Shown here piece by piece: positions 34,482 to 54,808 of a stretch of 64,000 nt of DNA. Within the stretch, counting starts at the first letter, position 1. Every line of letters starts with the position of its first letter. The notes beneath the pieces are model-generated. The model made no database searches. It worked only from the letters and a program-made list of their open reading frames with translations, and had not been told where the DNA came from. The stretch is from positions 3,968,001 through 4,032,000 of the forward strand of contig NZ_CP024202.1 in assembly GCF_003932755.1 (NCBI RefSeq), given 5' to 3'. This stretch comes from Methylomicrobium sp. wino1. GTDB lineage: Bacteria; Pseudomonadota; Gammaproteobacteria; Methylococcales; Methylomonadaceae. Position numbers and translations under genes: made by a program.

Positions 34482-34518
34482 ATTATCCGGGGAAAATTTA
34501 ATTTATACTCATCGGATA

Positions 34519-35232: not shown

Positions 35233-35280
35233 AGAAAAAGAACATTGATGTCCAGCCCCTTCCGGAACGACGAGAGGCTA

Positions 35281-35595: not shown

Positions 35596-35619
35596 TAAAC
35601 TTACCCATCATTGCCATAA

Positions 35620-37074: not shown

Positions 37075-37085
37075 ATGACAATCCC

Positions 37086-38453: not shown

Positions 38454-38655
38454 TAAATCATAAAGTCGTCATAGTTGAGCTCGTTCATGGCAAGCTCGAA
38501 TTAAACCGCAACATCAAGGTAAACTCGCTTATTTTATAGCAATTACCGGTCTGCTTCGAGCCTTAGATTCCTCATTTTCTTGCCGGTTTTACAAGGCACA
38601 ACTATTATTGGTCATTTCGTCACAATAGTTCAACTTACACGAATCACATCAAGCC

Positions 38656-39792
38656 ATGAAAATATTGGTCGTAGACGACATAGAGCAAAATAGACTGATG
38701 TTGTTTAAGCTACTATCGAGAAAAGCGCATCACATACTATTTGCAGAAAACGGACTCGAAGCCATAGAACAATTCAATCACGAACATCCGGACTTGATAC
38801 TGATGGATATCATGATGCCGGTCATGGATGGCTTTGAAGCGACCTCCAAAATAAGAGCCTTAAATATCGACAAATGGGTTCCGATTCTTATTCTGAGCGC
38901 TGTCGACGGCGAGTATAATATCGTCAAAGGCCTGGAGGTCGGCGCCGACGATTATTTGCCCAAGCCCATCAATCCCGCGATTCTCTATGCGAAAATAACG
39001 AGCATCGAACGGTCGATCGAGATGCAAAACAGCATCATTGAGGGAAAACGCCAACTCCAAGCTTACCAAGACCAAAATGAAGTCGAACAGCGTTTCGCGC
39101 AGACGATCTTCGATCGTTTGATTCATCAAAACGACTTACAAGACCCGCAGTTGAATTATTGGCTACTGCCAGCCAGACGTTTTAGCGGCGATTTAGTTTG
39201 TGTTAAACGCATCGGCCCCGACCGCCTCTATTTTATGCTGGCCGATTCGACCGGACATGGCCTCGCCGCCGCGCTGCCGACCATCATCGTCAATCAAGTT
39301 TTTCAAGGAATGACGCAAAAAAGATTATTGGTTTCTTGCATTGCTAGAGAAATCAACAACCGTTTGAAAAAAGAATTACCATCGGGGCATTTCGTGGCTT
39401 TAGTCTTAGGCATGGTCGATAACCGTAACCAATTGATTGAAATATGGAACGGGGGCTTACCCGACCAATGGGCTCTAAATATTCAAGGCATTCCGGTACG
39501 CACTTTCAAATCGCAACATACATTCGCCGGCGTACTGGACAATGACGACTTTGACGATGGCACAGAAATCTGGCAATGGCTGAAAGCGTGCGAATTTTTT
39601 TTCTATTCCGACGGACTCGTCGACATTGAAGATCCTCTCTCCGAATGTTCCGGCCATGATTGGTTGTTGAAAACCTTAAAACAATCTACATCGGGACAAC
39701 GAATACAAGCCATTCAAGCCGAATTATCCGACTACATGCAAAAAAATGAAATTCACGATGATATTTCTTGTCTATCTATTCTATGCCGTTAA
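38656..39792 (+). CDS. response regulator with PP2C-type phosphatase output (REC-SpoIIE)
   Basis: The protein has 378 residues. The receiver (1-120) has VVDDIEQNRLML, the phospho-acceptor Asp in LILMDIMMPVMDGFEA, and DDYLPKPINPAIL with the Lys. A coiled coil (about 120-155) leads to a PP2C/SpoIIE domain (about 165-378) with FSGDLVCVK, MLADSTGHGLAAALP and FFYSDGLVDIED. Such RsbU-like proteins dephosphorylate anti-sigma-factor antagonists. No sensor kinase, anti-sigma factor or STAS protein is in the window, so the target is unknown. Confidence 0.88.
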   Translation: MKILVVDDIEQNRLMLFKLLSRKAHHILFAENGLEAIEQFNHEHPDLILMDIMMPVMDGFEATSKIRALNIDKWVPILILSAVDGEYNIVKGLEVGADDYLPKPINPAILYAKITSIERSIEMQNSIIEGKRQLQAYQDQNEVEQRFAQTIFDRLIHQNDLQDPQLNYWLLPARRFSGDLVCVKRIGPDRLYFMLADSTGHGLAAALPTIIVNQVFQGMTQKRLLVSCIAREINNRLKKELPSGHFVALVLGMVDNRNQLIEIWNGGLPDQWALNIQGIPVRTFKSQHTFAGVLDNDDFDDGTEIWQWLKACEFFFYSDGLVDIEDPLSECSGHDWLLKTLKQSTSGQRIQAIQAELSDYMQKNEIHDDISCLSILCR

Positions 39793-39800
39793 CCGATAAA

Positions 39801-39992
39801 CCTAAAAAGAGCAGTTGACATGTGTTGTAGACCGTTCGTGCTGAGCTAAGTCGAAGCATGAAGGGTCTACAACACTTTCATCGTCTTGGTGAAGCCTCAA
39901 ACTACCGTTCACCCTTCGACGAGGCTCTCCTGAGTGCAGCCGAAAGGCTCAGAGCGAACGGTAGTTTGAGGCTCTCAAATGCTCTTTTTAGG
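39801..39992. repeat. 192-bp inverted-repeat element, family CCTAAAAAGAGCA, expanded copy
   Basis: The ends are CCTAAAAAGAGCA (39801-39813) and TGCTCTTTTTAGG (39980-39992), a perfect 13-bp pair. It shares the first about 100 bases with 27529-27643. It then has an extra hairpin, CAAACTACCGTTC/GAACGGTAGTTTG, absent from the shorter copy. ATAAA and ATAAG flank the two ends. Confidence 0.75.
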
Positions 39993-40062
39993 ATAAGCGG
40001 AAATTTTAAACCCTATCGAACCGGGCAAGGAAACGAATGAACCATTGGCAAAAGGTGAGCTT

Positions 40063-40599
40063 ATGCTGCCGGACTTAACCAGCATTCAACCCGCTTTTGT
40101 AGGATTTAATTTTCGAAATACGGTAGCTGCCGAACAAAATCCTAACGCTTCCGAAAACGACACTCAAATCCAAGGACGAGACACAAGCCTTGCGGATGAT
40201 GCGCAATTTTCTATCGAGGAACAGCGTCAAATCAAGGCATTAAAAGCCCGGGATGTAGAGGTCAGGGCTCATGAGCAAGCGCATGTAAATGCAGCCGCGG
40301 GTATTGCCGTCAGCGGTGCAAGCTTTTCCTATCAAACCGGTCCCGACGGAAACCGCTACGCCATCGGCGGCGAAGTTCAAATCGACACCTCTCCGGCCCC
40401 CGGCGATCCCGAGGCTACGCTAAGAAAAGCCGAATCTATTCGCAGGGCGGCACTTGCACCGGCGCAGCCATCCTCTCAAGATTTCAGTGTGGCAGCCAAC
40501 GCCGCCAGAATGACAAGCGATGCCAGAATTGAACTTCTCAAACAAACGCAGGAAAACGCCGACCCTAAGTTTGGCACAGCCATCGATATCGCCGTTTAA
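40063..40599 (+). CDS. SprA-related HExxH protein (putative metalloprotease)
   Basis: The protein has 178 residues. The core EVRAHEQAHVNAAAG has the zinc-metalloprotease HExxH pattern, followed by SYQTGPDGNRYAIGGEVQID and later AESIRRAALAPAQPS, the SprA-related family (PF12118). Catalytic activity is presumed, not shown. I prefer ATG 40063 to the TTG at 40045 because AGGTGAG lies directly in front of it. There is no signal peptide. It converges on the HerA-like gene. Confidence 0.75.
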   Translation: MLPDLTSIQPAFVGFNFRNTVAAEQNPNASENDTQIQGRDTSLADDAQFSIEEQRQIKALKARDVEVRAHEQAHVNAAAGIAVSGASFSYQTGPDGNRYAIGGEVQIDTSPAPGDPEATLRKAESIRRAALAPAQPSSQDFSVAANAARMTSDARIELLKQTQENADPKFGTAIDIAV

Positions 40600-40643
40600 A
40601 CGCGGCTGTGGGCCGAAATTTACCTAGAGAGAAAAAGAAGCCT

Positions 40644-42308
40644 TTATTTTCGGGTTTGAGTGCGCCATAATTGCACAATTTGATCCACATCCAAATCGTC
40701 AGGGCCTTCACGCCAACCCATATAATAATCCACGTCATTACTTTTCGGCTCCGGATTGGGGCGATAGATCTGCACGCGGGTCGGCAAAGGTGCCGCCTCA
40801 CCCAGTACTAACGCCTCACCTCTTCCGAGAGAAGTTAAAATATCGGTCAAGTCGCCTTCGGCTTCCGGAACCAATCCGCGTATATAAGCTTGATCGTCCG
40901 GGTTGGTTGTTCTCAGACAGAAAAACGAACTGCATTGGGCCAACATCGTTTCCGATAATTCGGTCGGCCTTTGGCTAATGACCCCGATCGAAACGCCGTA
41001 TTTTCGCCCTTCTTTTGCGATACGCTCCATCATCCTTTTCGTTCCTTCGAACTGACCGCCTTTCTCACGCGGGATATAAGCATGAGCCTCTTCGCAAATC
41101 AGCGTAATCGGAAATTCCCGGCGTCTCGGATTCCAATAATTGAATTCATAGGCCAACCGGCCCACTTGTGCGGAAACCGCCGGCCTAACATCGGTCGGCA
41201 CCGAACTCAGGTCTACAACGGTAATATTGGCCTTGTTATCGCCCAATCCGATGAACTGCCGCAGTAAATCGGCCATGCCGGCAGAAGTATTTCGTTTTTT
41301 CGGTTTTAACAAGAAATCATAACGCACATCATTGAATCGACTCTGCATTCTGACTAAAAATTCGTCGAATTGACCAAATAAGGCGCCTTTGCTTTTACCG
41401 AAATCCTTACGCTCTTCATTGGCATTCTTGAACTGCATATACAATTCGGCCAGTGAAAAATAAATCGGCGTATCGATCGAAACCACGCCTAAACCGATTT
41501 CCTTTGCTTCCTTCCGCTTGAGTTGTTGCAAGATTTCACGCATGAATGCCATCTGCATCGAAGCGCCGTTATCGTTGCGATCGATAAAGAGATCGACTAA
41601 CTCTGAATAACTCATCATCCAATAAGGCATCTCCATATCCATCGCATCGACATAGTTGACCATGTCGCTAGGAAAGGCGGATTGAATTGTGCCATTATCG
41701 TCCTTCCAACAATATTCGCCATGTAAATCCAACATAATCAAATGCGCTTTCGGCATGGCCTTGATGGTATGTTGAATCAGGCTAGTGACGGTCCAGGACT
41801 TACCCGAACCGGACTGTCCGATGATCGCGAAGTGGCGCCCGAATAAAGCCCGAGGATCGAGACTGAGATGATATTCCTTATGCGAAGCCAACTGGCCGAT
41901 AAAAAATTCGTAATCCCTAAAGGCAGAAAAAATAGCGTTAATTTCGCTTAAGCCGACAGCGTAAACTTTCGCACCGGGTGTCGGATAGTGTCTAACGCCT
42001 CGAACGAAGCTGCCGTCTTCCTTGATTTCCCCGACCGGAATCAACGAAATAAAACGATCCGCCTTGCGTATTCCAACCGAATCGAAACGATCGCGCTCCC
42101 ACATTTTAAAAACCAGGGCCAGCACGCCAATTGTCCCCTGTCTGATAACGACATACGAACCAATATGACCGGCCAGGATTTCTTCGTTACCAATTCGAAT
42201 TATCGGCAAGTCGGAAGAATGCTGTTCGGCTATTCTGGCCTCCATGCCATCTCCGCGCACTTCGGAAAGATAGCCGATTAGAATACTATTTAAGGGTTGC
42301 TCGGACAT
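40644..42308 (-). CDS. HerA/DUF87-type ATPase
   Basis: The protein has 554 residues. An N-terminal HerA beta-barrel precedes the P-loop AIIGQSGSGKSWTVTSLI. Walker B is ITLICEEAHAYIPRE, followed by a conserved ISQRPTELSETMLAQ and an arginine-finger-like segment. HerA-type ATPases form hexamers that translocate DNA and usually work with NurA nuclease. No NurA gene is adjacent, so the partner, if any, is elsewhere; some family members act alone or in defence. It is monocistronic. Confidence 0.88.
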   Translation of the reverse strand: MSEQPLNSILIGYLSEVRGDGMEARIAEQHSSDLPIIRIGNEEILAGHIGSYVVIRQGTIGVLALVFKMWERDRFDSVGIRKADRFISLIPVGEIKEDGSFVRGVRHYPTPGAKVYAVGLSEINAIFSAFRDYEFFIGQLASHKEYHLSLDPRALFGRHFAIIGQSGSGKSWTVTSLIQHTIKAMPKAHLIMLDLHGEYCWKDDNGTIQSAFPSDMVNYVDAMDMEMPYWMMSYSELVDLFIDRNDNGASMQMAFMREILQQLKRKEAKEIGLGVVSIDTPIYFSLAELYMQFKNANEERKDFGKSKGALFGQFDEFLVRMQSRFNDVRYDFLLKPKKRNTSAGMADLLRQFIGLGDNKANITVVDLSSVPTDVRPAVSAQVGRLAYEFNYWNPRRREFPITLICEEAHAYIPREKGGQFEGTKRMMERIAKEGRKYGVSIGVISQRPTELSETMLAQCSSFFCLRTTNPDDQAYIRGLVPEAEGDLTDILTSLGRGEALVLGEAAPLPTRVQIYRPNPEPKSNDVDYYMGWREGPDDLDVDQIVQLWRTQTRK

Positions 42309-42488
42309 TATATGCTTCCTATCAATTCAAAGATATTAAGCATTCTAGACGAAATTTAAGTTTTAAACTTCGTTCGGAAGTTTTTTGGCCGTCATTTCAA
42401 ATTTGGAGAGAAAGCACGCCGTCAAACGATTTGAATTGTTATCAATCCAAGCCATCGTGCAAAAAAATAGCGCCTATGCGCTTTGTTT

Positions 42489-42581
42489 CGCGAAGCTAGA
42501 GCTTCGCGTACCGATTTCCCAAGCTTGGAGCTTGGGAAACAGCGGAACTCCCCTTTCCCCTTTCCCCTTTCACCTTTCCCT
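42489..42581. repeat. two hairpins and a (GGGAAAG)n heptamer array before the feoC stop
   Basis: CGCGAAGCT/AGCTTCGCG (42489-42508) and TTTCCCAAGCT/AGCTTGGGAAA (42515-42539) are strong hairpins and may end feoABC transcripts. Between them and the feoC stop lies a period-7 CCCCTTT array (about 42550-42580). The feoC stop codon, TAG on the minus strand, is the first part of that array. Confidence 0.75.
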
Positions 42582-42801
42582 AATCAATCCATTCATAAAA
42601 TTCGGTTAATGCCGGGTCGCATTTACAGCAACTGGTTCCACACGACCCATTCGGCGATGATGATTTAATTTTTCCTTTACTGATCCACTTGCCTAACATG
42701 CCTCTAATCGCGTCGGCATCCATATCGAAATGATTGACTAAATCCACCATCGCCACTTTATGCCTTTGCTTGATATAGTTTCTAAGATCGGACAGTATCA
42801 C
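42580..42801 (-). CDS. feoC: FeoC-like iron-transport regulator
   Basis: The protein has 73 residues. An N-terminal winged-helix (MILSDLRNYIKQRHKVAMVD) is followed by a Cys-rich loop (GSCGTSCCKCDPALTE), which in FeoC proteins can bind an Fe-S cluster. It overlaps feoB by 20 bases. FeoC is thought to protect or regulate FeoB. The gene ends in the heptamer tract. Confidence 0.88.
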   Translation of the reverse strand: MILSDLRNYIKQRHKVAMVDLVNHFDMDADAIRGMLGKWISKGKIKSSSPNGSCGTSCCKCDPALTEFYEWID

Positions 42802-45112
42802 CTGTTTTCTCCTGTTGAACGGGATTGTTGGAATTTCGCCCGGATAAGCGCAACATCAACAATACCAATAAAAAGAAAAGACTTAGCCCAATCAACCACG
42901 TCAACGAATAACTCGGATGATCGCTAAAGGTTGATAATTGATAGAAAAATGTTGCGGTCGTATAGGCAATACCGGTCGTCCAAGAGACGACAAACAATGT
43001 CCAACCTAAATTAGTTTCTCGAAAGATCGCCGCCGTCGCCGCGACGCAAGGCGCATACAATAAAATAAATAATAGGTAGGCGAATGCCCCGGCTTGGCCG
43101 TCAAAACTGACGCGCATTGCCCCGTAAGTTCCTGTATCGACTTCTTGGTCATTGACTGCGGTTTCGATGTCGAGCCCCAACGGATCCAACAGATTACCGG
43201 CAACACTCAGTAAGTTTTCAGGAATCGTCATCACCGCCTCACTCAGGGTTACGACTAAATCGAAACCTTCATCGTCGACCTCAGCACCATCAAACGCCAT
43301 TTGACTGTACAAAGCGTTCAAAGTACCGACTACGGCCTCTTTAGCCAATACGCCGGTAAAAATGCCGACCGTAGCAGGCCAATTGTCGTTCTCTATGCCC
43401 ATTGGTTTGAATACCGGCGTCAAGCCTCGGCCTATTTCACTTAATACCGATTGGTCGCTGTTTTCACGACCGAAACTGCCGTCCGTACCCATCGCATTGA
43501 GAAAATTCAAAACCAGTACCATCGGTACGATCACCTTACCGGCATTGAAAATAAAGGTTTTGAGCCGATCCCAAGTTCTGAGTAAAACACTTCGCAGGCG
43601 CGGAATATGATAAGCCGGCAGCTCCATGATAAATGGCGTGGCTTCGCCCTTGAACAAGGTATGGCGCATAATCAGACCGGTAAAAACCGCCACCGCAATG
43701 CCAATCAAATACAGTCCGAATACCAGATTTTGTCCGCCGACCGGGAAAAAAGCCGCCGCGAACAACGCATAAACCGGCAATCGGGCGCCGCAGGACATGA
43801 AGGGGTTCATCATATTGGTCAGAATCCGATCATGTTGATTTTCCAGCGTTCTGGTCGCCATGATTGCGGGTACGTTACAACCGAAACCGACGATCATCGG
43901 CACGAAGGATTTACCGGGCAGGCCGATCATGCGCATAAAACGATCCATCACGAAAGCGGCGCGCGCCATGTAGCCGGAATCCTCCAAAGCGGATAACACC
44001 ATAAATAGAAACCCGACAATAGGAATAAACGTCGCGACAACTTGCACGCCTCCGCCCGCGCCTTGAGCGATTAAAACCACTAACCACTCCGGCCAATTCA
44101 TTTGATTTAATACAAACGCTAAACCATCGACAAAAAATGCTCCGGTCACTTGTTCAAAAAAATCTATGAAAGCGCTGCCGATATTAATCGTGAACATGAA
44201 CATCAAATACATCACCAGCAAAAAAATCGGTATGCCTAAAAAGCGATTCAATACCAAGGCATCAATTCGCTCGGTAGTATGCCGATTTAATTGTTGAGTA
44301 TGAATCACGAAACGCTGAGTCAATGAATTGACGAATCCATAGCGAGCATCGGCGGCTAGAATATCGATCTCGTCATCAGCTTCGGTTTCTATTTGTCGTT
44401 GCAGAGCCGCAACAGTCCCTTTGAGTTCATAACCGGCAATTTGTTTGGCTAAAGTGTCGTCTTCGAGCAAACGAACAGTCAACCACCGCAGGTCGCAACG
44501 GTGCCGCTCGGCCAGCGGTTGCAATAACGGCAATAACTTGTCGATAGCTTGTTCTAAAGCCGGCGCATAAGGAATATCGAGACTCGGAACAGGCTTAGGC
44601 TTATCCTGCGCGGCACGATTAATAACTTCCTTTAAATGACTTATTCCTTCTCCGGTCGATGCACTGATTGGCACAACCGGGCAACCCAATAGATTGGAAA
44701 GTTCATCAACATCGATCGCCACGCCTTTTAGTCGAGCGGCATCGATCATGTTCAGAGCGATCATCATCGGCACCCGCATTTCCAGGAGCTGAGAAGTCAA
44801 ATATAAATTACGTTCGATGTTTGACGCATCGACGATATTAATGATCAAATCCGCTTCCCTAGCCGCAACATAGTCTCTGGCCACTTTCTCATCGAGAGAA
44901 ACATCGTCATCGGCAGCTTCCAGGGAGTAGGTACCCGGCAAATCGACAACACGCACGATTTTATGATCGAAACGATATTCGCCGGTTTTCTTTTCGACGG
45001 TCACACCCGGCCAGTTGCCTACGTGCTGTTTAGAGCCGGTCAAAATATTGAACAGCGTCGTTTTACCGCAATTAGGATTACCGACGACGCCTATCGTAAA
45101 ATCGATTGCCAT
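42782..45112 (-). CDS. feoB: ferrous iron transporter FeoB
   Basis: The protein has 776 residues. The G domain has VGNPNCGKTTLFNIL (G1), VDLPGTYSLEA (G3) and LNMIDAARLKG (G4). The membrane part has two gate regions with Cys, such as GFGCNVPAIMATRTLE and YAPCVAATAAIFRETN. It imports Fe2+ across the inner membrane. It starts at the last base of the feoA stop and overlaps feoC. Fur control is indicated by the upstream box. Confidence 0.97.
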   Translation of the reverse strand: MAIDFTIGVVGNPNCGKTTLFNILTGSKQHVGNWPGVTVEKKTGEYRFDHKIVRVVDLPGTYSLEAADDDVSLDEKVARDYVAAREADLIINIVDASNIERNLYLTSQLLEMRVPMMIALNMIDAARLKGVAIDVDELSNLLGCPVVPISASTGEGISHLKEVINRAAQDKPKPVPSLDIPYAPALEQAIDKLLPLLQPLAERHRCDLRWLTVRLLEDDTLAKQIAGYELKGTVAALQRQIETEADDEIDILAADARYGFVNSLTQRFVIHTQQLNRHTTERIDALVLNRFLGIPIFLLVMYLMFMFTINIGSAFIDFFEQVTGAFFVDGLAFVLNQMNWPEWLVVLIAQGAGGGVQVVATFIPIVGFLFMVLSALEDSGYMARAAFVMDRFMRMIGLPGKSFVPMIVGFGCNVPAIMATRTLENQHDRILTNMMNPFMSCGARLPVYALFAAAFFPVGGQNLVFGLYLIGIAVAVFTGLIMRHTLFKGEATPFIMELPAYHIPRLRSVLLRTWDRLKTFIFNAGKVIVPMVLVLNFLNAMGTDGSFGRENSDQSVLSEIGRGLTPVFKPMGIENDNWPATVGIFTGVLAKEAVVGTLNALYSQMAFDGAEVDDEGFDLVVTLSEAVMTIPENLLSVAGNLLDPLGLDIETAVNDQEVDTGTYGAMRVSFDGQAGAFAYLLFILLYAPCVAATAAIFRETNLGWTLFVVSWTTGIAYTTATFFYQLSTFSDHPSYSLTWLIGLSLFFLLVLLMLRLSGRNSNNPVQQEKTGDTVRS

Positions 45113-45345
45113 TAAATTTTCTCGATTAATAAGACAGAAGCTTCATCCTTGCGTAATGTCAATGAAAAACCACGCAGCTTTATCTCGACCGGGTCCCCCA
45201 TTGGCGCAAAGCGAGTGACACAAAACTGTGTCCCAGGCGTTAAACCCATCGCCAACAAACGTTTTCGGTAGGCCTTTGCAGATTTATCGAAGCCGGTAAT
45301 ACGACCGCAATCGCCAACGATGAGGTTTTTTAAACTTAAGTTCAT
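45112..45345 (-). CDS. feoA: ferrous iron transport protein FeoA
   Basis: The protein has 77 residues, an SH3-like fold: GRITGFDKSAKAYRKRLLAM then GLTPGTQFCV and GDPVEIKLRGFSLTLRKDEA. It assists FeoB in the cytoplasm. It is the first gene of feoA-feoB-feoC, overlapping feoB by one base. Confidence 0.95.
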   Translation of the reverse strand: MNLSLKNLIVGDCGRITGFDKSAKAYRKRLLAMGLTPGTQFCVTRFAPMGDPVEIKLRGFSLTLRKDEASVLLIEKI

Positions 45346-45389
45346 TTGCTTAGCCTCTTAGTCTTGGATACCCAAAACAATATAATTAG

Positions 45390-45404
45390 TAATAATCATT
45401 CTCA
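45390..45404 (-). promoter_or_regulatory. Fur box upstream of feoABC
   Basis: On the minus strand the site reads TGAGAATGATTATTA, matching the 7-1-7 Fur consensus TGATAATNATTATCA at 12 of 14 defined positions. It lies 45 bases before the feoA start, where it would overlap the promoter. It predicts Fe2+-Fur repression. Confidence 0.8.
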
Positions 45405-45645
45405 TTAAACGACTATATCATAACTATACTTAACGTCAAAACATGGTTTTCCGAACTTGTTTTACATTGGCGGATCGAGCGGAGTACGTTTCTTGCTTAC
45501 TGTGAAAGTTCGTAGATTGGGACTTCCTTGATTGAAACTCTTTATCATCTAATTTTTTGATATGAAAAACAATGTTGGTTCCGAGGAGGGTGCGGTTGCT
45601 CGACCAACAGGCATCGGCGCCGTGGAGCCTACATGGACATATTTA

Positions 45646-45709
45646 CCCAGCACCTAAATTGTCTATTTAATCTATCATGGCCAATAATCTATGGAATTTA
45701 GGTGCTGGG
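45646..45709. repeat. 64-bp inverted-repeat element with TTTA duplication
   Basis: CCCAGCACCTAAATT (45646-45660) and its exact complement (45695-45709) bound 34 interior bases. TTTA occurs directly on both sides (45642-45645 and 45710-45713), a 4-bp target duplication. The host sequence is a partial 34519-type repeat. It is the same size as the copy at 52422-52485 but in the opposite orientation. Confidence 0.82.
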
Positions 45710-45803
45710 TTTACGGCGTCCTGTCGGGCGAGTGATCGCACCCTAGCCACCCCTCGCACTTTCATTTGCCGGGTTGATGATAGCTTCTTCATGATCGTTA
45801 GGG

Positions 45804-46049
45804 CTATTGACCTTTTTCGATTTTTTTCATTAATTTTGCATATTGGCTTTTCCATTTAAACGAACTAATACCGGAAACCAATACACCAATGATAATACCC
45901 GCCAGCAACTCTAACGTTAAAGCCAAAGTGAGCGGCATCGAAATAGTAAAGAAATAAAAATTGATTTGAACTGAATGAAAATTCAGAATGGAAAAGATCA
46001 ACGCAACAATGAAAATGCTGATGAAAATAACGATCGATAGAAATTTCAT
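45804..46049 (-). CDS. lapA: LapA-family inner-membrane protein
   Basis: The protein has 81 residues with two membrane helices (FLSIVIFISIFIVALIFSIL and LTLALTLELLAGIIIGVLVS), the LapA/DUF1049 layout. LapA works with LapB and FtsH to control LPS synthesis. The position behind ihfB is the usual one. The lapB gene that normally follows is absent here. The start is 121 bases past the ihfB stop. Confidence 0.82.
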   Translation of the reverse strand: MKFLSIVIFISIFIVALIFSILNFHSVQINFYFFTISMPLTLALTLELLAGIIIGVLVSGISSFKWKSQYAKLMKKIEKGQ

Positions 46050-46170
46050 TATTATCCAATTGTTACGTTGACTGGGGATAGCTGTCAGTGTCTAATTTAT
46101 CAAACACTGGTCCAGCAAAGAAAAGGATTTTTCTTCAATCAATATGCCTAGCGGATTGACTAAACGGCGA

Positions 46171-46476
46171 TTAATCCGTTATTTTGCAATTTTCACGAGA
46201 CATATCGACCCTGTCTCGAAGCTCCTTACCAGGCTTAAAGTGCGGTACATATTTTTTGGGTAAGGCCACCGATTCACCGGTTTTTGGATTGCGTCCCATT
46301 CTAGCTTCGCGTTCACGTAACGAAAAACTGCCGAACCCTCTGATTTCTATTCTTTCATTGGAAGACAACGACTGACTCATCTGTTCGATGATGCATTTGA
46401 CCGCCAACTCGACATCTTTTAAAGCTAGATGCGGTTGATGTTTTGCGAGTGCTTCTATTAATTCCGATTTTGTCAC
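46171..46476 (-). CDS. ihfB: integration host factor beta subunit
   Basis: The protein has 101 residues. The HU/IHF fold is clear: [40 protein letters not shown] and [20 protein letters not shown], which includes the beta-arm Pro. IHF binds and bends DNA with IhfA. It is downstream of rpsA after a terminator, as in many gammaproteobacteria. Confidence 0.97.
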
Positions 46477-46498
46477 ATTCTATCCTGCGAAAATGAAT

Positions 46499-46530
46499 AA
46501 AATCAAAAGGGTGCGCAGCTTAGCGCACCC
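46499..46530 (-). terminator. Rho-independent terminator of rpsA
   Basis: On the minus strand GGGTGCGC and GCGCACCC form a perfect 8-bp stem around TAAGCT and run into TTTTGATTTTATT. It is 13 bases past the rpsA stop and separates it from ihfB. Confidence 0.88.
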
Positions 46531-46542
46531 GTCTGCATGACT

Positions 46543-48204
46543 TTACTTTTCCATTTGCTTGAAGATATCGCCTAAGGTAGGCGTACCCGCTGGCTGTTGA
46601 GTATAGTCTTTAAGCGCTTCGGACTCTTCATCCTGATCCTTTGCCTTAATCGACAAGGAAATCGATTTACTTTTTTTATCGACACCGATAAATTTCGCTT
46701 CGATTTGCTCGCCTTCTTTCAGTAAAGTCCGAGCATCTTCAACACGGTCCCGTTGAATCTCGGAAGCACGCAGATAGCCTTCGACATTATCGGCTAATGT
46801 GATAACGGCTCCCTTCGCATCGACTTCTTTAATTGTTCCGTTAACCAGACCGCCTTTTTCATGAAGGGCCAAGTAGTTTTGGAACGGGTCTTGCTCAAGT
46901 TGCTTAATACCTAGCGAAATACGTTCACGCTCGGCGTCGACTGCCAAAATAACGGTTTCTACCTCATCGCCTTTCTTGAAGTCGCGCGCGGCTGCTTCAG
47001 TATCGTCGTTCCAGGAAATATCGGACATATGAACCAAACCGTCAATGCCACCATCCAGTCCGATGAAAATACCGAAATCAGTGATCGATTTGATTTTGCC
47101 GGAAATTTTGTCGCCTTTGTTATGAGTCGCGGCAAACTCATCCCATGGATTGGTTTGGCATTGCTTCATACCCAAGGAAATACGGCGACGCTCTTCGTCG
47201 ATTTCCAAAACCATGACTTCGACTTCATCGCCCAATTGCACAACTTTGGAAGGATTGACGTTTTTGTTGGTCCAGTCCATTTCGGAAACGTGTACCAGAC
47301 CTTCAACACCCTCTTCGATTTCAATGAAGCAGCCGTAATCGGTCAGGTTATTGACTTTACCGAATACGCGAGTACCGGCCGGGTAACGGCGAGCAATATT
47401 TTGCCAAGGATCTTCACCCAATTGTTTCATACCCAATGAAACGCGGTTTTTCTCTTTATCGAACTTCAGAACCTTGACTTTGATCTCTTGGCCTATTTCG
47501 ACACACTCGGATGGATGACGAACACGGCGCCACGCCATATCGGTTATATGCAGCAAGCCATCGATACCGCCCAGGTCGATAAACGCACCGTAATCGGTCA
47601 GGTTTTTGACGATACCGGTGACTTCGGCACCATCATGCAGAGATTTGAGCAGTTCTTCTCTTTCTTCGCTATATTCTTTTTCGACGACCGCACGACGCGA
47701 CAATACGACATTGTTACGTTTTTGGTCGATTTTAATAACCTTGAATTCCAGATCGCGATTTTCTAGGAAAGTCGTGTCTCTAATAGGACGCACATCGACT
47801 AATGAGCCAGGCAGGAACGCTCTCAACGCGCCTACGGCAACGGTAAAGCCGCCGCGAACCTTGCCGGTAATACGACCGGTAATGGTTTCTTCTTTTTCAA
47901 AGGCCTGTTCCAGCTCGATCCAAGCTTTGTTTTTCTTGGCTTTATCGCGGGAAAGAAGAGTGGCTCCCAAGCCGTCTTCAAATAAATCGAGAGCGACTTC
48001 GATTTCATCGCCGACTTCGACTTCCAAATCACCATCGGCATTTAAAAACTGCCATTTAGGAATCACACCCTCTGATTTGGCTTGGGTACTGACGATCACG
48101 AATTCATTTTCGATATCGACAACGGTACCCATTAACATTGCACCAGGACGCATTTCGGTCTTGGCTAAACTTTCTTCAAATAATTCAGCAAAGCTTTCGC
48201 TCAT
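46543..48204 (-). CDS. rpsA: 30S ribosomal protein S1
   Basis: The protein has 553 residues and six S1 RNA-binding repeats, the normal proteobacterial length. Repeats 3-6 share the pattern [20 protein letters not shown] / [20 protein letters not shown] / [21 protein letters not shown]1 brings mRNA to the 30S subunit. A terminator ends the preceding cmk gene, so rpsA likely has its own promoter in 48205-48263. Confidence 0.98.
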
Positions 48205-48263
48205 TGTTCTTCTTTCCCAAGCTTGTTGTACATAGGCACAAGCTTCATATAAGTTATCAAGGT

Positions 48264-48296
48264 TAAAAAAAAAGCCGCTTAATACTGCTTGCGGCG
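48264..48296 (-). terminator. Rho-independent terminator between cmk and rpsA
   Basis: On the minus strand GCCGC and GCGGC enclose AAGCAGTATTAA and are followed by nine T. It lies directly past the cmk stop and would limit read-through from the gyrA-cmk genes into rpsA. Confidence 0.72.
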
Positions 48297-48310
48297 GACG
48301 TAAATACTAC

Positions 48311-48967
48311 TCAGCGAATCAAATTTACTATCTGCTCAATGACCGTCTCGATGGACATATCGGAAGAATCGATAAAAACAGCATCATCAGCCTGCATCAA
48401 TGGCGCGGCTTTGCGCTGTTGATCGCGGCGATCACGCTCTTCAATCTCTTGAGTAATGTGCGAAAGGTTAGCATCAATTCCTTTTTCTTTCAACTGTTTA
48501 TATCGGCGCATCGCTCTTTCTTCAGCACTAGCCGTTAAAAACACCTTATTTTGAGCATCAGGAAATACAACGGTACCCATGTCTCGACCGTCTGCAACTA
48601 AGCCGGGTGGCTTTCTAAAATCCTTTTGTTTTTGCAGCAAAACCTTTCTAACTTCAGGTAAGGCGGCGACCACCGAGGCTGCATTGCCTATATTTTCAAA
48701 ACCCAATTGACCGGTTATATTCTTACCATCAAGCTTAACGGTTAATTCGTGGGCGCATTCGAACTCCAATACCATCGCCTTGGCAACTTCCGCAACGACC
48801 GCCTCGTCGCTCAAGTCGGCTCCTGCTGCAATGGCGGCAATGGCCAATGATCGATAGATCGAACCGCTATCCAAGTAGTGCCAGCCCAATCTTCTCGCAA
48901 TTGCTCGACTGACCGTGCCTTTACCGGCGCCGGACGGACCGTCGATTGTCAATACCGGAACCGACAT
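48311..48967 (-). CDS. cmk: cytidylate kinase
   Basis: The protein has 218 residues from ATG 48967. The frame is open further upstream into aroA, but the family starts MSVPVLTIDGPSGAGKGTVS, the P-loop. Later come LVADGRDMGTVVFPDA and RAMRRYKQLKEKG. It phosphorylates CMP and dCMP. The start overlaps the aroA stop by one base (TAATG), so it is translationally coupled. Confidence 0.95.
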   Translation of the reverse strand: MSVPVLTIDGPSGAGKGTVSRAIARRLGWHYLDSGSIYRSLAIAAIAAGADLSDEAVVAEVAKAMVLEFECAHELTVKLDGKNITGQLGFENIGNAASVVAALPEVRKVLLQKQKDFRKPPGLVADGRDMGTVVFPDAQNKVFLTASAEERAMRRYKQLKEKGIDANLSHITQEIEERDRRDQQRKAAPLMQADDAVFIDSSDMSIETVIEQIVNLIR

Positions 48968-50286
48968 TAGCCTTGCTCGGACTGCAGTTTTAAACCTAGA
49001 GCCGGAGCGATTTTTATGAACTCCGGAAAGGACGTATTGACGTTTTCGCAATCGTTAATGACGATTTTTCCGCCGGCCTTGAGCCCGGCAATCGAAAACG
49101 CCATTGCGATACGATGATCACCATGCGATTCGACCGAGCCCGAACCGATTTTTCCGCCTTGAATGATCATGCCGTCCGGCGTCGGCTGCGCATCGATGCC
49201 GAGAATTTGCAAACCATCGGCCATGACTTGAATGCGGTCTGATTCCTTGACTCTGAGCTCATCGGCACCGGTCAAACGGGTTTGCCCTATGGCGCAAGCC
49301 GCAGCAACAAACAATACCGGAAATTCATCGATCGCCAGCGGAACCAACTCCTCAGGAATATCGATGCCTTTCAATGGCGCCGATTTAACATGCAGATCGG
49401 CTACCGGTTCGCCGCCGACGATGCGTTCGTTCAATATTTCGATATCGGCACCCATCAATCGTAGAATATCGATTACACCGGTACGGGTAGGATTGATACC
49501 GACATGATTCAGCACGATATCGGAACCTTGTGCAATGGATGCGCCGACCAAAAAAAACGCCGCCGAAGAAATGTCACTAGGCACATCGATATCGGTCGAC
49601 GTTAGTCTGCCTTCGGCAGTAATTGTCACCTTAGCCCCTTCTTTTTCGATCGGATACGAAAAACCGTTCAGCATCCGTTCGGTATGATCGCGTGTCGGCG
49701 CCGGCTCGGTAACGCGGGTCACCCCTTCTGCGTACATCCCTGCCAATAACAAACATGACTTGACTTGAGCGCTGGCCATTGGCATTTGATAATCGATGCC
49801 TTTCAATTTACCGGCCTGCCCTTTGATATGCAGTGGTGCCGTGCCCTTTTCAGTCGTTTCGATCACCGCACCCATTTGTGCCAACGGATCGGTAACCCGT
49901 TTCATCGGCCTGCCGGACAAGGATTTGTCGCCGGTCAATACCGAGTCGAAAGCCTGCCCCGCCAACAACCCGGACAGTAAGCGCATCGATGTACCCGAGT
50001 TACCTAGATACAATGGTTTTTGCGGCGCCTTCAAACCGTGTTTACCGACCCCATGAATCGTTAATTCGCCATTTTTCGGCCCTTCGATAACGACACCCAT
50101 GTCTTTGAATGCCTGCAGCGTCGCCAATGCGTCTTCGGCTTCGAGAAAGCCTTTGACATGCGTGACGCCATCGGCCAGGGAACCGAGCATGATCGAACGG
50201 TGAGAAATCGACTTGTCGCCAGGGACCCTTGTCTGCCCATTTAATGAACCGCCGGGTTGTACAATGAAAGTTATCGTTTTAGCCAT
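48967..50286 (-). CDS. aroA: 3-phosphoshikimate 1-carboxyvinyltransferase (EPSP synthase)
   Basis: The protein has 439 residues. Signature segments are GDKSISHRSIMLGSLADG, LYLGNSGTSMRLLSGLLAGQ, GDKSLSGRPMKRV and LRVKESDRIQVMADGL, with the shikimate and PEP residues in place. LGNSGTSMR has the Gly-Thr-type class II signature rather than the E. coli LGNAGTAMR. It catalyses step six of the shikimate pathway. It follows tyrA by one base and precedes cmk with a one-base overlap. Confidence 0.97.
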   Translation of the reverse strand: MAKTITFIVQPGGSLNGQTRVPGDKSISHRSIMLGSLADGVTHVKGFLEAEDALATLQAFKDMGVVIEGPKNGELTIHGVGKHGLKAPQKPLYLGNSGTSMRLLSGLLAGQAFDSVLTGDKSLSGRPMKRVTDPLAQMGAVIETTEKGTAPLHIKGQAGKLKGIDYQMPMASAQVKSCLLLAGMYAEGVTRVTEPAPTRDHTERMLNGFSYPIEKEGAKVTITAEGRLTSTDIDVPSDISSAAFFLVGASIAQGSDIVLNHVGINPTRTGVIDILRLMGADIEILNERIVGGEPVADLHVKSAPLKGIDIPEELVPLAIDEFPVLFVAAACAIGQTRLTGADELRVKESDRIQVMADGLQILGIDAQPTPDGMIIQGGKIGSGSVESHGDHRIAMAFSIAGLKAGGKIVINDCENVNTSFPEFIKIAPALGLKLQSEQG

Positions 50287-50287
50287 T

Positions 50288-51163
50288 TTAATTTGTCAAT
50301 TGATCGAGAAAACGCTGTCGGGCTTGACCCGCGTATGTGAAGGTTTGAAAAATCTGCTGGCTGTCGTCGTTTTCAAGAGCCAGCTCCATCGTATCTAATT
50401 CTTGTTTGAGCTGTTGAATCAGCGGTATTATTTTTTGCTTATTGGCCAAACATATATCCAACCACATGGTCGCATCGCTTGAAGCGATGCGCGTAAAATC
50501 CTTAAAACCACCGGCTGCATATTTAAATATTTCGACTTGCTCGTCCTTACGTCCGAGTAGATCGACCAACACAAAGGCCAGTAAATGCGGCAAATGACTG
50601 GTCGCGGCTAGTACCGCATCATGATGATCGACCTCCATGATCGACACGATCGCACCCAAGCGCTGCCAAAACTGTTGCATTGATGCCGTCGCCTTTGGAT
50701 CGGTTTGTTCAACCGGCGTGATAATCAGTCGCTTATCGTCGAATAAACCATTCACCGAAGCCGTTACACCGCTTTGTTCGGCTCCAGCAATCGGATGAGC
50801 CGGAACAAAATTACTCGGCATGTACCCGAATACTCGCTTAGCAGCATTGACCACATTGCCCTTGGTACTGCCGACATCGGAATAAACGGCTCGTTCGGAC
50901 CAATAAGGCTGCAACTCGCCAAGTACCTTTTCGATTGCACCAACCGGCGTCGCGATGATGATGCAATCGGCGTCCTTCAAGGCCGCTTCGAGGTTTATAA
51001 AATACTCGTCGATGACACCCAGTCGTCGAGCTTCTATCAAATTATCGAGATCTATTTCACGACCGTACGCGACGATGGCCTTACATAAGTCGCGATCGCG
51101 TGCGGCGCGAGCTATCGAGCCGCCGATCAGCCCGACGCCGATTAGACATAGCTTATTAAACAT
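50288..51163 (-). CDS. tyrA: prephenate dehydrogenase
   Basis: The protein has 291 residues from ATG 51163; the TTG two codons upstream is less likely. The NAD site is KLCLIGVGLIGGSIARAAR; CIIIATPVGAIEKVL, FVPAHPIAGAEQSG and TSHLPHLLAFVLVD are family motifs. It makes 4-hydroxyphenylpyruvate for tyrosine. It is the monofunctional form (no chorismate mutase). It overlaps hisC by eight bases. Confidence 0.94.
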   Translation of the reverse strand: MFNKLCLIGVGLIGGSIARAARDRDLCKAIVAYGREIDLDNLIEARRLGVIDEYFINLEAALKDADCIIIATPVGAIEKVLGELQPYWSERAVYSDVGSTKGNVVNAAKRVFGYMPSNFVPAHPIAGAEQSGVTASVNGLFDDKRLIITPVEQTDPKATASMQQFWQRLGAIVSIMEVDHHDAVLAATSHLPHLLAFVLVDLLGRKDEQVEIFKYAAGGFKDFTRIASSDATMWLDICLANKQKIIPLIQQLKQELDTMELALENDDSQQIFQTFTYAGQARQRFLDQLTN

Positions 51164-52268
51164 CGGCAAGCACAGCCTCTAGCGCCTCGAGACAACGGCT
51201 ATTTTCGGCGGGTGTACCGATACTAATGCGCAAATAGTCGGGCATTTCGTAATTCGCGACCGGTCTTACGATGACGCCTTTTTGCAACAAAGCCCGATAA
51301 ACACCCTCTCCCGAGCATTTGACATCGACCGATACAAAATTGCCGGCCGACGGAATCCAGTCCAGTCCGAGTTTACGGAATCCATCGATTAACTGTTGCA
51401 TGCCATCGTTGTTAATCTCTATCGTACGTTGCAAGTGCTCATGATCCGCAAGCGCCGCTTCAGCCGCCGCCAATGCGAGCATATTATTGTTGAAGGGCTG
51501 GCGTACTCGATTCAGAAAATCGGCAATCCCCGGATTGGAAAAACTGTAACCGACACGCAAGCCAGCCAAGCCATAGGCTTTGGAAAAAGTCCGGGTCACG
51601 ATCAAATTAGGGTGATCAGCCAACCAGGCGATTGAATCGGCACGGCTTTTCGGGTCGATAAATTCGTAATAAGCTTCATCCAAGACGCAAAGCACATGAC
51701 TCGGCAATGCCGCAATAAAATGGCGCAGTTCATCGGGCGCCAATAAGGTGCCGGTCGGATTGTTCGGATTCGCAATAAAAACAAGCCGGGTTTTATCATT
51801 GATCGCCGCCAACATCGCATCGAGATCATGCCCGTATTCGCGCGCCGGAATAACAACGCCGGTAGCACCGACGGCCTGCGTCACAATCGGATAAACGGCG
51901 AATGCATGCTGCGAAAAAATCACCTCATGAGCCGGTGTTAAGAAAGCTCTGGCCAGTAACTCCAGAATTTCATTAGAACCATTACCCAATGTAATGTGCG
52001 ACATATCGACGCTAAATTTTTCGGCTAACGCACGTTTCAACTTGAAACCGTTACCATCGGGGTAACGTGCCAAATCGGGTAAGGTCGCATTAATCGCCGC
52101 CAACGCCATCGGACTCGGCCCTAGCGGGTTTTCATTCGATGCCAATTTAACGATATCGCTCAGACCTAATTCGCGTTCGAGTTCTTCGATCGGTTTACCG
52201 GGCGTATAAGGAACAAGTCGCTGCACGCCAGGCGTGGCCAGAGAATAAAAATTGTCGGTGATATTCAT
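51156..52268 (-). CDS. hisC: histidinol-phosphate / aromatic aminotransferase
   Basis: The protein has 370 residues, fold-type I PLP enzyme: KLASNENPLGPSPMAL, NPNNPTGTLL, and the PLP lysine in VTRTFSKAYGLAGLRVGY. In this operon position (pheA-hisC-tyrA) the enzyme often serves phenylalanine and tyrosine transamination as well as or instead of histidine. Sequence alone cannot decide. It overlaps tyrA. Upstream is a 361-bp gap dominated by a repeat. Confidence 0.92.
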   Translation of the reverse strand: MNITDNFYSLATPGVQRLVPYTPGKPIEELERELGLSDIVKLASNENPLGPSPMALAAINATLPDLARYPDGNGFKLKRALAEKFSVDMSHITLGNGSNEILELLARAFLTPAHEVIFSQHAFAVYPIVTQAVGATGVVIPAREYGHDLDAMLAAINDKTRLVFIANPNNPTGTLLAPDELRHFIAALPSHVLCVLDEAYYEFIDPKSRADSIAWLADHPNLIVTRTFSKAYGLAGLRVGYSFSNPGIADFLNRVRQPFNNNMLALAAAEAALADHEHLQRTIEINNDGMQQLIDGFRKLGLDWIPSAGNFVSVDVKCSGEGVYRALLQKGVIVRPVANYEMPDYLRISIGTPAENSRCLEALEAVLADV

Positions 52269-52299
52269 TAATAGGGAATAAAAATATGATTTTGAACAT

Positions 52300-52527
52300 T
52301 ATACCTTTCGCACTTCAAATTTCGGTAGTGCCTGAGGAAGCGACGGGGTGTGCGGCCCCTCACCTAACGCTAGGTGAGGGGCCAGCATGGAGCTGGCATA
52401 GAGCCTACATGGACGTATTCACCCAGCACCTAAATTCCATAGCCTTTTGGCTATGGTAACTATCTTGCATAATTTAGGTGCTGGGTTCATGGCGTCCTTT
52501 GACGGGCACCCCGGTGCCGAATTTTGA
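52300..52527. repeat. inverted-repeat element, family TCAAAATTCGGC, carrying a nested 64-bp element
   Basis: It matches the 34519-34663 repeat, with CTTCAAATTTCGG at the left and GCCGAATTTTGA at the right (to 52527). It differs by two extras: a CCCCTCACCTA/TAGGTGAGGGG hairpin near 52356-52383, and the 64-bp element at 52422-52485. It occupies most of the gap between pheA and hisC and may affect the operon's lower half. Confidence 0.82.
52422..52485. repeat. 64-bp inverted-repeat element with TTCA duplication
   Basis: CCCAGCACCTAAATT (52422-52436) and its exact complement (52471-52485) bound 34 bases. TTCA is on both sides (52418-52421 and 52486-52489). The empty site in the sister repeat reads ATTCACGGCG, with TTCA once. 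Confidence 0.85.
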
Positions 52528-52629
52528 TCTACAATGGGCATATATACCGGCAAACGGGTGATAGTGATTGAATGGGCTATCAAGAAGCTTCGACGTTCCG
52601 ACGTTTACGCAATTTACGCGTTTCATTTT

Positions 52630-53715
52630 TTATAGAACCGCCTTCGGGTACGACCCTAATATATTCAACATACTGACCCGGGCGCCCAGCATTTTTAACG
52701 CCGCCGCAACATTCTCGTCCTCGGCATGACCTTCGATATCAATAAAGAATACATAATCCCACAGTCCTTGACGCGATGGCCTCGACTCAATATGCATCAT
52801 GCCGATACCGTGATGCGCGAACGGCTCTAAGACTCGATAAAGCGCGCCCGGCTGATTGCCGGTCGACACCAACAGCGAGGTTTTATCCTTACCGGTCAAC
52901 CCTGAAATCTGGCGACCGATAATGATGAATCGAGTGGTATTGTTCGACTCATCCTCAATGTTGCATTCGATGACCGAGAGCCCGTAAAGTTCGGCAGCGA
53001 ATTTTCCGGCTATCGCCGCCTTATCTTTGGAACCGGCAGCCAAGCGCGCCGCCTCACCGTTACTATTGACGGCGGTGCGTTTCGCATCGGGCAAGTGCAG
53101 ATCCAACCATTGACGGCACTGCGCCAAGGATTGCTGGTGCGAAAAAACCTCCGTGATATCCGCAAGACTTCCGGCATTACCGATCAGATTATGATGAACC
53201 CGCAATTCGACCTCGCCGCAGATCTTCAACGGAGAACTAACGAATCGATCCAAGGTATGATTGACCACCCCTTCTGTCGAATTTTCGACCGGCACGACAC
53301 CGAACTGACAATGCTCGTTTTCGACCGCATTGAATATTTCTGCGATCGTCGTAGCAGGCACTGCATTGACCGCATGCCCGAAATGTTTAATCGTTGCCTG
53401 TTGAGTAAAAGTACCTTCCGGGCCCAAAAACGCGACGTCCAATGGTTTCTCAAGCGCCAAACAGGCCGACATCAACTCTCTAAAAAAACGCATCGCGGTT
53501 TCATCGGCAAGCGGACCTTGATTGAGTGCCTTAACCCGCCTTAATACCAACGACTCCCTATCCGGCCGGTAAAAACATCCCGATTCACCTTCCGCCGTCT
53601 TGGTTTTAGCCACTTCGATGGCACAAGACGCACGTTGATTGATCAACTGTAGAATCTGTTCGTCGATCATATCAATTTGCGCCCTTAAATCGGCAAGAGG
53701 AGTAATTGAAGTCAT
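52630..53715 (-). CDS. pheA: bifunctional chorismate mutase / prephenate dehydratase (P-protein)
   Basis: The protein has 361 residues from ATG 53715 (the frame opens upstream in serC). Chorismate mutase AroQ is at 1-95 (LADLRAQIDMIDEQILQLIN), prephenate dehydratase about 100-280 (VAFLGPEGTFTQQA, VPVENSTEGVVNHTLD) and a regulatory ACT domain at the end with the Phe-binding MHIESRPSRQGLWDY. It makes phenylpyruvate and should be Phe-inhibited. It lies ten bases past serC. Confidence 0.95.
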   Translation of the reverse strand: MTSITPLADLRAQIDMIDEQILQLINQRASCAIEVAKTKTAEGESGCFYRPDRESLVLRRVKALNQGPLADETAMRFFRELMSACLALEKPLDVAFLGPEGTFTQQATIKHFGHAVNAVPATTIAEIFNAVENEHCQFGVVPVENSTEGVVNHTLDRFVSSPLKICGEVELRVHHNLIGNAGSLADITEVFSHQQSLAQCRQWLDLHLPDAKRTAVNSNGEAARLAAGSKDKAAIAGKFAAELYGLSVIECNIEDESNNTTRFIIIGRQISGLTGKDKTSLLVSTGNQPGALYRVLEPFAHHGIGMMHIESRPSRQGLWDYVFFIDIEGHAEDENVAAALKMLGARVSMLNILGSYPKAVL

Positions 53716-53725
53716 GTTGCGATAC

Positions 53726-54808
53726 TCAGGCTCGGGTTCTTTCGAATTCGGCCATGAATTCAATTAAAGCTTTTACGCCTTCCTCAGGCATTGCATTATA
53801 AATGCTCGCACGCATACCGCCTACGGAACGATGCCCTTTTAATTCGGCGAAGCCATTGGCTTCGGCTTGGGTTAAAAACTCTTTATCGAGCGATGCATCG
53901 GATAAGATGAAAGGCACGTTCATTCGCGAACGAAATTCGGTTTGCACCGGATTGCTATATAACGAAGAACGATCGATTGCGTCATACAAACTCGCCGCTT
54001 TTCTGATATTGACGGATTCTATCGCCTCGACGCCACCAGCCAATTTGAGCCATTTCAACACCAAACCGACTAAATACCAATTGTAAGTCGCCGGCGTATT
54101 CAGCATCGATTGATTCTTGGCCTGTACCGCATAATTGAATACATCGGGTAATCGATCATCGGTTTCACCGATCAAATCATCGCGCACGATTACGACGGTA
54201 ACTCCGGCAGGTCCCATATTTTTCTGGGTTCCCGCATAAATCAACCCGAACCGACTGACGTCGATCTTGCGCGACAAAATATTGGATGACATATCGGCCA
54301 CCAACGGCAAGCCATTGACATTCGGTATGAATGGAAATTCGACGCCGTGTATTGTTTCGTTCGAGGTGTAGTGCAAATACGCCGCATCAGGTTCGATTTG
54401 CCACTCGGTAACATCAGGAATCATCGTAAATTTTTCCGACTCCGAACTAGCCGAGACGACGACCTCGCAGAACCGCCCGCCATCCTTGATCGCTTTCTCG
54501 GACCAAGCGCCGGTATTGATATAGCAAGCTTTGGTCTTACCGCGCAAGAGATTCAAAGGAATAAATGAAAACTGGCCGGTCGCGCCGCCTTGTAAAAACA
54601 AGACCTTATAATTATCGGGAATCGCCATCAATTCGCGCAAATCGACTTCCAATTGTTCGGCAATATTCGAAAAATGCTTGCCTCGATGACTCATTTCCAT
54701 CACCGACATGCCGCTAGACTGCCATTCAAGCATTTCATCGCGCGCCTGCCGAAGCACCGCCTCGGGTAATGCCGATGGTCCAGCGCTGAAATTATATATT
54801 CTGGCCAT
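53726..54808 (-). CDS. serC: phosphoserine aminotransferase
   Basis: The protein has 360 residues, class V aminotransferase: RIYNFSAGPSALPEAVL, LFLQGGATGQFSFIPLN, and the PLP lysine in IYAGTQKNMGPAGVTVV. It makes phosphoserine for serine and a related intermediate for pyridoxal phosphate. The start shares one base with the gyrA stop (TAATG). Confidence 0.97.
   Translation of the reverse strand: MARIYNFSAGPSALPEAVLRQARDEMLEWQSSGMSVMEMSHRGKHFSNIAEQLEVDLRELMAIPDNYKVLFLQGGATGQFSFIPLNLLRGKTKACYINTGAWSEKAIKDGGRFCEVVVSASSESEKFTMIPDVTEWQIEPDAAYLHYTSNETIHGVEFPFIPNVNGLPLVADMSSNILSRKIDVSRFGLIYAGTQKNMGPAGVTVVIVRDDLIGETDDRLPDVFNYAVQAKNQSMLNTPATYNWYLVGLVLKWLKLAGGVEAIESVNIRKAASLYDAIDRSSLYSNPVQTEFRSRMNVPFILSDASLDKEFLTQAEANGFAELKGHRSVGGMRASIYNAMPEEGVKALIEFMAEFERTRA

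Follow-up and report, generated by a model that had tools for sequence, protein, structure and literature searches.

A probable MITE-like element of 64 to 65 bp hosted by other repeats in Methylomicrobium sp. wino1

Prokaryotic MITEs with target duplications are well known, as the accessible parts of earlier reports indicate (PMC2229807, PMC10969869, PMC3049150), and the size range given for BOX in the available portion of one of them is 67 to 637 bp (PMC3049150). Insertion sequences specific for a dispersed palindromic intergenic repeat have also been described in the available part of one report (PMC1525189); REP-targeting examples are IS1397, ISKpn1, IS621 and ISPpu9. We have analyzed a stretch of 64,000 nucleotides (the window) from the single-contig, 5.06-Mb genome of Methylomicrobium sp. 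wino1, referred to as the home genome or G000 (the window being G000:C1:3968001-4032000). Below, "inner" designates a 64- to 65-bp element, "outer" the larger repeat hosting it and "composite" the two together.

A first-pass annotation of the window had reported two 64-bp copies with identical 15-bp inverted ends, opposite interiors and the flanking tetramers TTCA/TTCA and TTTA/TTTA, all of which we could reproduce from the sequence. Copy 1 occupies positions 52422-52485 (plus strand; arms at 52422-52436 and 52471-52485), is predicted to fold as a single hairpin (z -8.8) and lies between TTCA at 52418-52421 and TTCA at 52486-52489. It is part of a 243-bp composite with an outer of type I (52300-52542, plus strand, the range of the repeat match), located between a prephenate dehydratase/chorismate mutase-domain gene and an aminotransferase gene and having near-full-length matches at many places in the genus. 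Copy 2 (45646-45709, minus strand), with its interior oriented opposite to that of copy 1, lies between TTTA at 45642-45645 and TTTA at 45710-45713 (all four tetramers being read on the plus strand). Its composite, with an outer of type II, spans 45497-45802 (plus strand), with approximate ends taken from repeat matches and with differences among the orthologues. A third outer copy, which had been said to lack the insert, was also recovered on the minus strand: this type I outer extends over 34509-34663 (approximate ends) and has its core GGACGTATTCACGGCGTCC at 34549-34567, with the target TTCA at 34557-34560. The proposal that the copies sit at the same point of one larger repeat was right regarding the central part, which is common, but the outers are two different, though related, variants.

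With up to 3 mismatches, the 15-mer arm gave four matches in the window, all four exact and forming two inverted pairs. Four or more matches at 3 mismatches were reached by 12 of 100 shuffles, so that this count alone is not significant and the window evidence for the arms rests on the four exact matches being paired at the same spacing. A comparison of window positions 34000-54000 with Rfam returned seven matches up to E 10, none at the gathering score. The window also carries another pair of repeats, 89% identical (27506-27633 and 39778-39905), with a 54-base inverted repeat, GTGTTGTAGACCGTTCG..., and a duplicated gene seen as two long ORFs about 5.3 kb apart (13057-14637 and 18389-19945) with stretches of 77-91% identity. 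At 35085-35243 there are two 41-base copies of TATGGGTTCC...GGAGGACCGTGG...ACCAG, 118 bases apart; a motif resembling this repeat adjoins an arm-like 15-mer at locus L177.

The genome-wide search with the 15-bp end that the annotation had proposed yielded 181 plus 177 occurrences on the two strands at up to 1 mismatch, and none for the reversed-pattern control. We have sampled the home genome through the window and 60 stretches of 20 kb at near-regular spacing (1.264 Mb in total), searching for arm pairs with up to 3 mismatches per arm within limits of 48 to 72 bp. The sample contained 47 distinct elements of 63-67 bp, 30 of them measuring 65 bp and 14 measuring 64 bp. The inner is short and has no coding capacity; forms of 50 and 53 bp were also found, and the 50- to 53-bp forms are near-perfect hairpins. 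Each of four inner strands subjected to folding gave one predicted hairpin (z -5.5 to -15.3), in which the arm CCCAGCACCTAAATT pairs with the opposite arm and not with itself. Not one of the 47 copies had over half of its length within an open frame of 150 aa or longer, though such frames (approximate starts) cover 80% of the sample bases.

The conservation of the element was concentrated in its arms. Among 29 copies with exact duplication, the pairwise divergence was 3.2% and 2.3% in the two arms versus 23% in the interior. These were the rows kept out of 50 after dropping those that had no exact duplication, exceeded 70 bp or showed over 2 mismatches in the right core, together with L190. 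In G194, which belongs to another genus, the 85 pairs have exact arms, as the search pattern demanded, and their interiors share little with those of the home genome beyond the arm-adjacent bases. Judging from these alignments, some factor appears to read the arms and to be nearly indifferent to the interior.

Exact arm pairs spaced 20-50 apart were found 82 times in the home genome and 6, 110, 66, 7 and 88 times in G001, G002, G003, G004 and G005, respectively, all of the same genus. G021, a member of another genus, had 11, and the other 54 of the 61 genomes searched had none, so that 7 of the 61 genomes, belonging to 2 of 39 genera, carry exact inner pairs. An order-wide search extended this to 9 of 251 genomes and 3 of 48 genera, by adding G194 (with its 85 pairs) and G165 (one pair). 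The viral contigs searched contained no exact inner pair and the plasmids searched no match to the composite, very near records possibly being left out in both cases. The outer core GGACGTATTCACGGCGTCC, at up to 2 mismatches, was present in 18 of the 61 genomes, which represent 9 of the 39 genera. G004 had 540 outer-core sites versus 7 exact inner pairs, showing that the outer is itself a very abundant family. With searches that differed in strictness for inner and outer, the outer is probably the wider and older repeat and the inner the later guest.

The tabulation of the flanking tetramers, also proposed by the annotation, revealed an exact 4-bp duplication in 31 of the 47 sample elements and its absence in 16. 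We have also sought the cores of the outer without using the arms, and found an inner-like insert in 35 of 121 spaced core-half pairs. These filled cores comprised 25 TTCA/TTCA, 7 TTTA/TTTA and 3 others, one of the latter being a chance match with a single arm-like end; exact duplications accounted for 32 of the 35, and there was no TTCA/TTTA mixture (Fisher p 3e-7). Empty cores selected with the same tight criteria (n = 26) displayed the same polymorphism, with 20 TTCA, 5 TTTA and 1 TTAA. Copying of the target tetramer during insertion would lead one to expect such an agreement between left and right. Two insertion events are the minimum that it requires, barring joint conversion of the two sides, and the number rises if both interior orientations are counted.

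The sample elements lay within a full outer core in 32 of 47 cases (two of these being core type III), so that passive spread with the composite may account for much of the copy number. No duplication was present at three copies of the I/II core class, two of which, L044 and L185, are type III cores with TTTA/TGAA. The inner was nevertheless not always fused with the outer repeat, the situation that the annotation had set against an independent element. One such location was the arm of a different inner copy, where the insertion point is the TTTA of AATTTAGG (L187, L190, L194 and, reversed, L035) and the flanks TTCA/TTTA form a near-duplication; another was a third core type (III), GGATGGGTTYACGGCG. 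In addition, our reading placed 10 of 16 rows of G021 in a repeat unrelated to the outer. The single empty relative of this second host repeat in the home genome (L203) reads CGTATTCAAGGC on the opposite strand, and one G021 copy in it, L244, has TGAA/CGAA flanks; a loose pattern search for the repeat gave mostly noise. Considering these few sites, a target TATTCA, followed by C/A and GGC, would be common to unrelated repeats. We have also observed an apparent outer inside an inner (L005:1500), and nesting may run the other way too.

The empty type I outer of the window has a predicted fold (z -7.7) with the TTCA in the seven-base apical loop of a small hairpin. A model in which insertion requires such a loop was dropped, since the second host repeat folds no better than shuffles (z 0.27) despite the looped target in the type I outer. 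This lack of a special fold made recognition of a TATTCA-like sequence the preferred reading, and double-strand, sequence-guided insertion with a 4-bp stagger is our better guess.

The annotation had taken the filled and empty sites together as evidence of movement. The two window copies alone were insufficient for this, but an orthologous locus with filled and empty states supported it. We have searched the flanks of 33 loci in G002-G005, starting with 15 filled ones with exact duplication and unique flanks and followed by 11 empty and 7 filled ones with unique flanks; regions from some of the relatives were compared for 23 loci, 13 from the first set and 10 from the second (18 loci). A clean inner-only difference was obtained at one of the 33 loci tried, E3 (L042:493). 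There, the outer is empty in G000, G004 and G005, and in G002 it is filled by an inner of 65 bp with TGAA on either side (TTCA when read on the opposite strand); the G002 flanks are 95.7 and 99.05% identical to those of G000. Over about 860 bp, the empty regions of G005 and G004 show 97.9 and 97.0% identity to G000, and a segment of about 480 bp, the outer included, is absent from G003. An unrooted tree of 3,310 joined columns grouped G002 with G004 (support 1.0) and G003 with G005 (0.969), apart from G000, so that the closest relative of G002 is E3-empty. With this tree, one gain in G002 is the simplest history, and the E3 difference is best read as a gain, although, the tree being unrooted, one precise loss to one side of the branch of G002 keeps a low probability.

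Presence of the whole composite also differed between relatives at one site. At 52.3 kb, the entire 243-bp composite is absent, with a clean junction, from G002, G003, G004 and G005, which indicates that the composite moved at this site. This absence of the full unit makes it probable that many copies were spread as composites. The inner was common to a relative at case 5 (G005), case 9 (G002 and G004) and case 13 (G003 and G005), and an empty outer was common to a relative at E1 (G002), E5 (G003) and E8 (G005). At F12 and F16 the inner difference was less clear, and at the remaining loci the outer was not shared or the comparison was not interpretable.

Taken together, the concordant duplications, the conserved arms with a variable interior and the E3 locus supported that the inner inserted independently and is not a module of the outer repeat. 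We consider it probable that the inner is a non-autonomous, MITE-like transposable element of 64-65 bp with a TTYA target, hosted by other repeats. The alternative that survives best, although we judge it unlikely, is that one or a few old insertions were followed by gene conversion or template switching between outers, which spread the inner with no recent transposition of its own. Signs of such exchange do exist. At case 14 and F15, the inner is in the home genome and absent from the relatives' shared outer, but one outer half differs too, so that presence of the inner coincides with an exchanged outer half and outer copies also exchange parts. At the 45497-45802 site, the inner of G003 (L072/L074) belongs to the same subfamily, but the right half of the outer differs and TTCA replaces TTTA, a further sign of exchange between repeat copies. 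Moreover, the identities of inner and outer flanks were uncorrelated in the 29 copies (Mantel r 0.075, p 0.24; the test is free of the type labels, which are crude in this set, the type I copy L036 12637 being labelled II), and very similar inners occur in outers of types I and II. The lack of correlation counts equally for the MITE-like explanation. Conversion is not readily compatible, however, with the unchanged outer flanks on both sides of E3, with the lack of TTCA/TTTA mixtures across the insert among the 35 cores, or with the copies found inside the arm of a second inner or in a repeat unrelated to the outer.

We have looked for an autonomous unit bearing the ends of the inner in the window, in the sampled loci of the home genome and its relatives and at 24 transposase loci, and none could be accepted. 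The scan covered 683 arm-like pairs 0.5-3.5 kb apart, of which five passed the open-frame and end filters. The sole unit of these with TTCA/TTCA, L035, was rejected, given that it encloses a ppnN-like gene (read from the translation) between two separate composites; the other four had unequal flanks. At 12 Y1 and 12 DDE_Tnp_1 loci, in no case did arms flank the gene on both sides. An inner pair at the IS4-like locus L323 was also discarded as a candidate, as it lies about 160 bp beyond the IS end and not at it. The comparison of the arms with local transposase ends, suggested by the annotation, therefore failed to provide a partner, with no matching ends at the Y1, DDE_Tnp_1 or IS1634 loci.

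Among the IS ends worked out, the IS1634-family element was the only one with CCCA ends and 4-bp duplications. This element (about 2.2 kb, YTAN-type duplications) was seen at L326, L333, L334, L339, L340, L343, L344, L347, L348, L351, L352, L355, L356 and L359. A special case of the MITE-like explanation, with a named partner, would be that the inner is a miniature derivative of such an element, and we regard this as rather improbable. What speaks for the relationship is that the 2.2-kb element, in G000 and G003, ends in CCCA...TGGG and is flanked by 4-bp duplications in all 13 copies for which both ends were found. Yet only the terminal CCCA is shared, the further end sequence differing from the arm, and the IS targets YTAN and not TTYA. 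Furthermore, no family member was above the cut-off in G001, G002, G004, G005 and G021, although G002 and G005 hold 110 and 88 exact inner pairs.

It is very improbable that the inner is a stem-loop module of the outer and that the empty sites reflect precise deletions by slippage between the flanking 4-bp direct repeats. A long hairpin between 4-bp direct repeats, as present here, is a known substrate for precise excision, and the location of 32 of the 47 sampled copies within a full outer core would be compatible with a module. Against this, the inner-free outer core occurs in more genera than the inner, the empty state at E3 is found in three lineages around the filled one, and the inner resides in other host repeats as well. 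Equally hard to sustain is a REPIN-like origin, in which a REP-associated tyrosine (Y1) transposase would move the inner as a folded single strand. In its favour, the inner is a short hairpin with two inverted conserved ends and a variable spacer outside long open frames, the genome has 12 Y1 matches, and at one Y1 locus (L316) a lone arm-like 15-mer (2 mismatches) lies about 260 bp away from the gene. Against it, the only arm pair at the 12 loci, at L316, is about 1 kb distant from the gene, and none of the other 11 loci has an arm match with fewer than 3 mismatches. Moreover, each arm pairs with the other and not with itself, and 4-bp duplications are, to our knowledge, not a feature of the Y1/REPIN pathway.

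The MITE-like explanation has to accommodate copies that do not follow a uniform duplication. Exact duplications were rare outside the home genus, in 1 of 16 rows for G021 and in 0 of 17 rows for G194/G165. The latter flank table was drawn from the 85 and 1 exact arm pairs of these genomes, using 15 listed G194 copies, 80 kb more of G194 sequence and the one G165 copy; after merging copies with identical flanks, 16 rows came from G194 and one from G165. Three copies, L011, L038:19733 and L043:7536, keep the left TTCA and miss TTCACGGCGT on the right, with six core bases replaced and no duplication. Of the 10 G021 copies hosted by the second repeat, 9 have an equally large gap when compared with the single empty relative at L203. 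These six-base core replacements lie ten bases from the usual 4-bp duplication product.

In G194, the commonest flank pair was TTTA/TGAA on either strand (7 of 16 rows; L365, L366, L372, L374, L375, L378 and L386, mostly core type III), which adds four bases to the inverted repeat. Changes of this type are known to arise through template switching at imperfect hairpins, which could have acted once before amplification of these copies. Both the six-base replacements and the TTTA/TGAA flanks count against a uniform 4-bp duplication.

Based on these data, we propose that a putative transposase supplied in trans would read the 15-bp inverted arms and insert the inner at TTYA, mostly at the central TTCA or TTTA of the larger palindromic repeat (core GGACGTATTYACGGCGTCC). 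A 4-bp staggered cut would then give rise to the TTCA or TTTA duplication. A DDE-type enzyme may move the inner, and TTYA may be recognised by sequence. Once inside the outer, the inner would multiply passively whenever the outer moves, and also by exchange between outer copies, so that hitch-hiking may supply many of its copies. The outer would itself be MITE-like, with ends TATAC.../...GTATA and probably a TA target.

A bolder version, which we offer tentatively and would not be surprised to see fail, regards the inner as a parasite of a parasite. The substrate would need little beyond the pair of 15-bp arms, and the TTYA core of other mobile repeats would be its target. A 50- to 65-bp hairpin with a free interior would then shelter in other MITEs and be carried by them in several genera of methanotrophs, and the six-base core replacements, ten bases off or about one helical turn, would be the second product of the same enzyme.

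If the MITE-like explanation is true, it lowers the known size of a DNA unit transposing with target duplication and provides a natural test of transposase needs, reduced to two 15-bp ends with almost nothing between them. Specificity for mobile repeats would also explain how more than 100 insertions could accumulate in one genome with 0 of 47 sampled copies in a long open frame. In addition, the layered states (no outer, outer, outer plus inner) could mark genome change in methanotrophs. Neither a description of the inner nor work on the repeats of this genus was found in the literature searched, which takes in few of the subscription journals and is available in part, so that this is weak evidence of novelty.

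Among known systems, MITEs such as Correia/NEMIS, ERIC, RUP and BOX resemble the inner in being short and gene-free or nearly so, with inverted ends, target duplication, many copies and no transposase of their own, as described in the available portions of two reports (PMC2229807, PMC10969869). The 64-65 bp of the inner fall below the smallest BOX size given in the accessible part of another (PMC3049150). In contrast to known MITEs, the inner enters one point of another repeat, and its arm is common to three genera while the interior turns over. It shares with MITEs in general the conserved terminal inverted repeats and the empty orthologous sites (E3 and the whole composite); a duplication of fixed length, 4 bp, was found in the home genome but not in the samples from other genera. 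A parallel to the inner within the outer is provided by ERIC, whose elements can carry small internal insertions at fixed positions.

The REP-targeting insertion sequences likewise use a dispersed palindromic intergenic repeat as target, according to the part of the report available (PMC1525189). Unlike the 64-bp inner, they encode a transposase, and the host repeat here was not matched to REPs. REPINs with RAYT transposases, as far as the accessible text describes them (PMC3116915), have in common with the inner the inverted conserved ends, the spacer, the hairpin and the high copy number. The inner differs from them by the lack of association with Y1 genes (12 loci), by its 4-bp duplications and by arms that are not hairpins alone. 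The IS1634 family has similar CCCA ends and a 4-bp duplication, but differs in its YTAN target, in its terminal sequence and in not rising above the cut-off in several hosts of the inner. What would be new here, compared with these systems, is the exceptionally small size of a MITE-like element that resides by preference in other mobile repeats.
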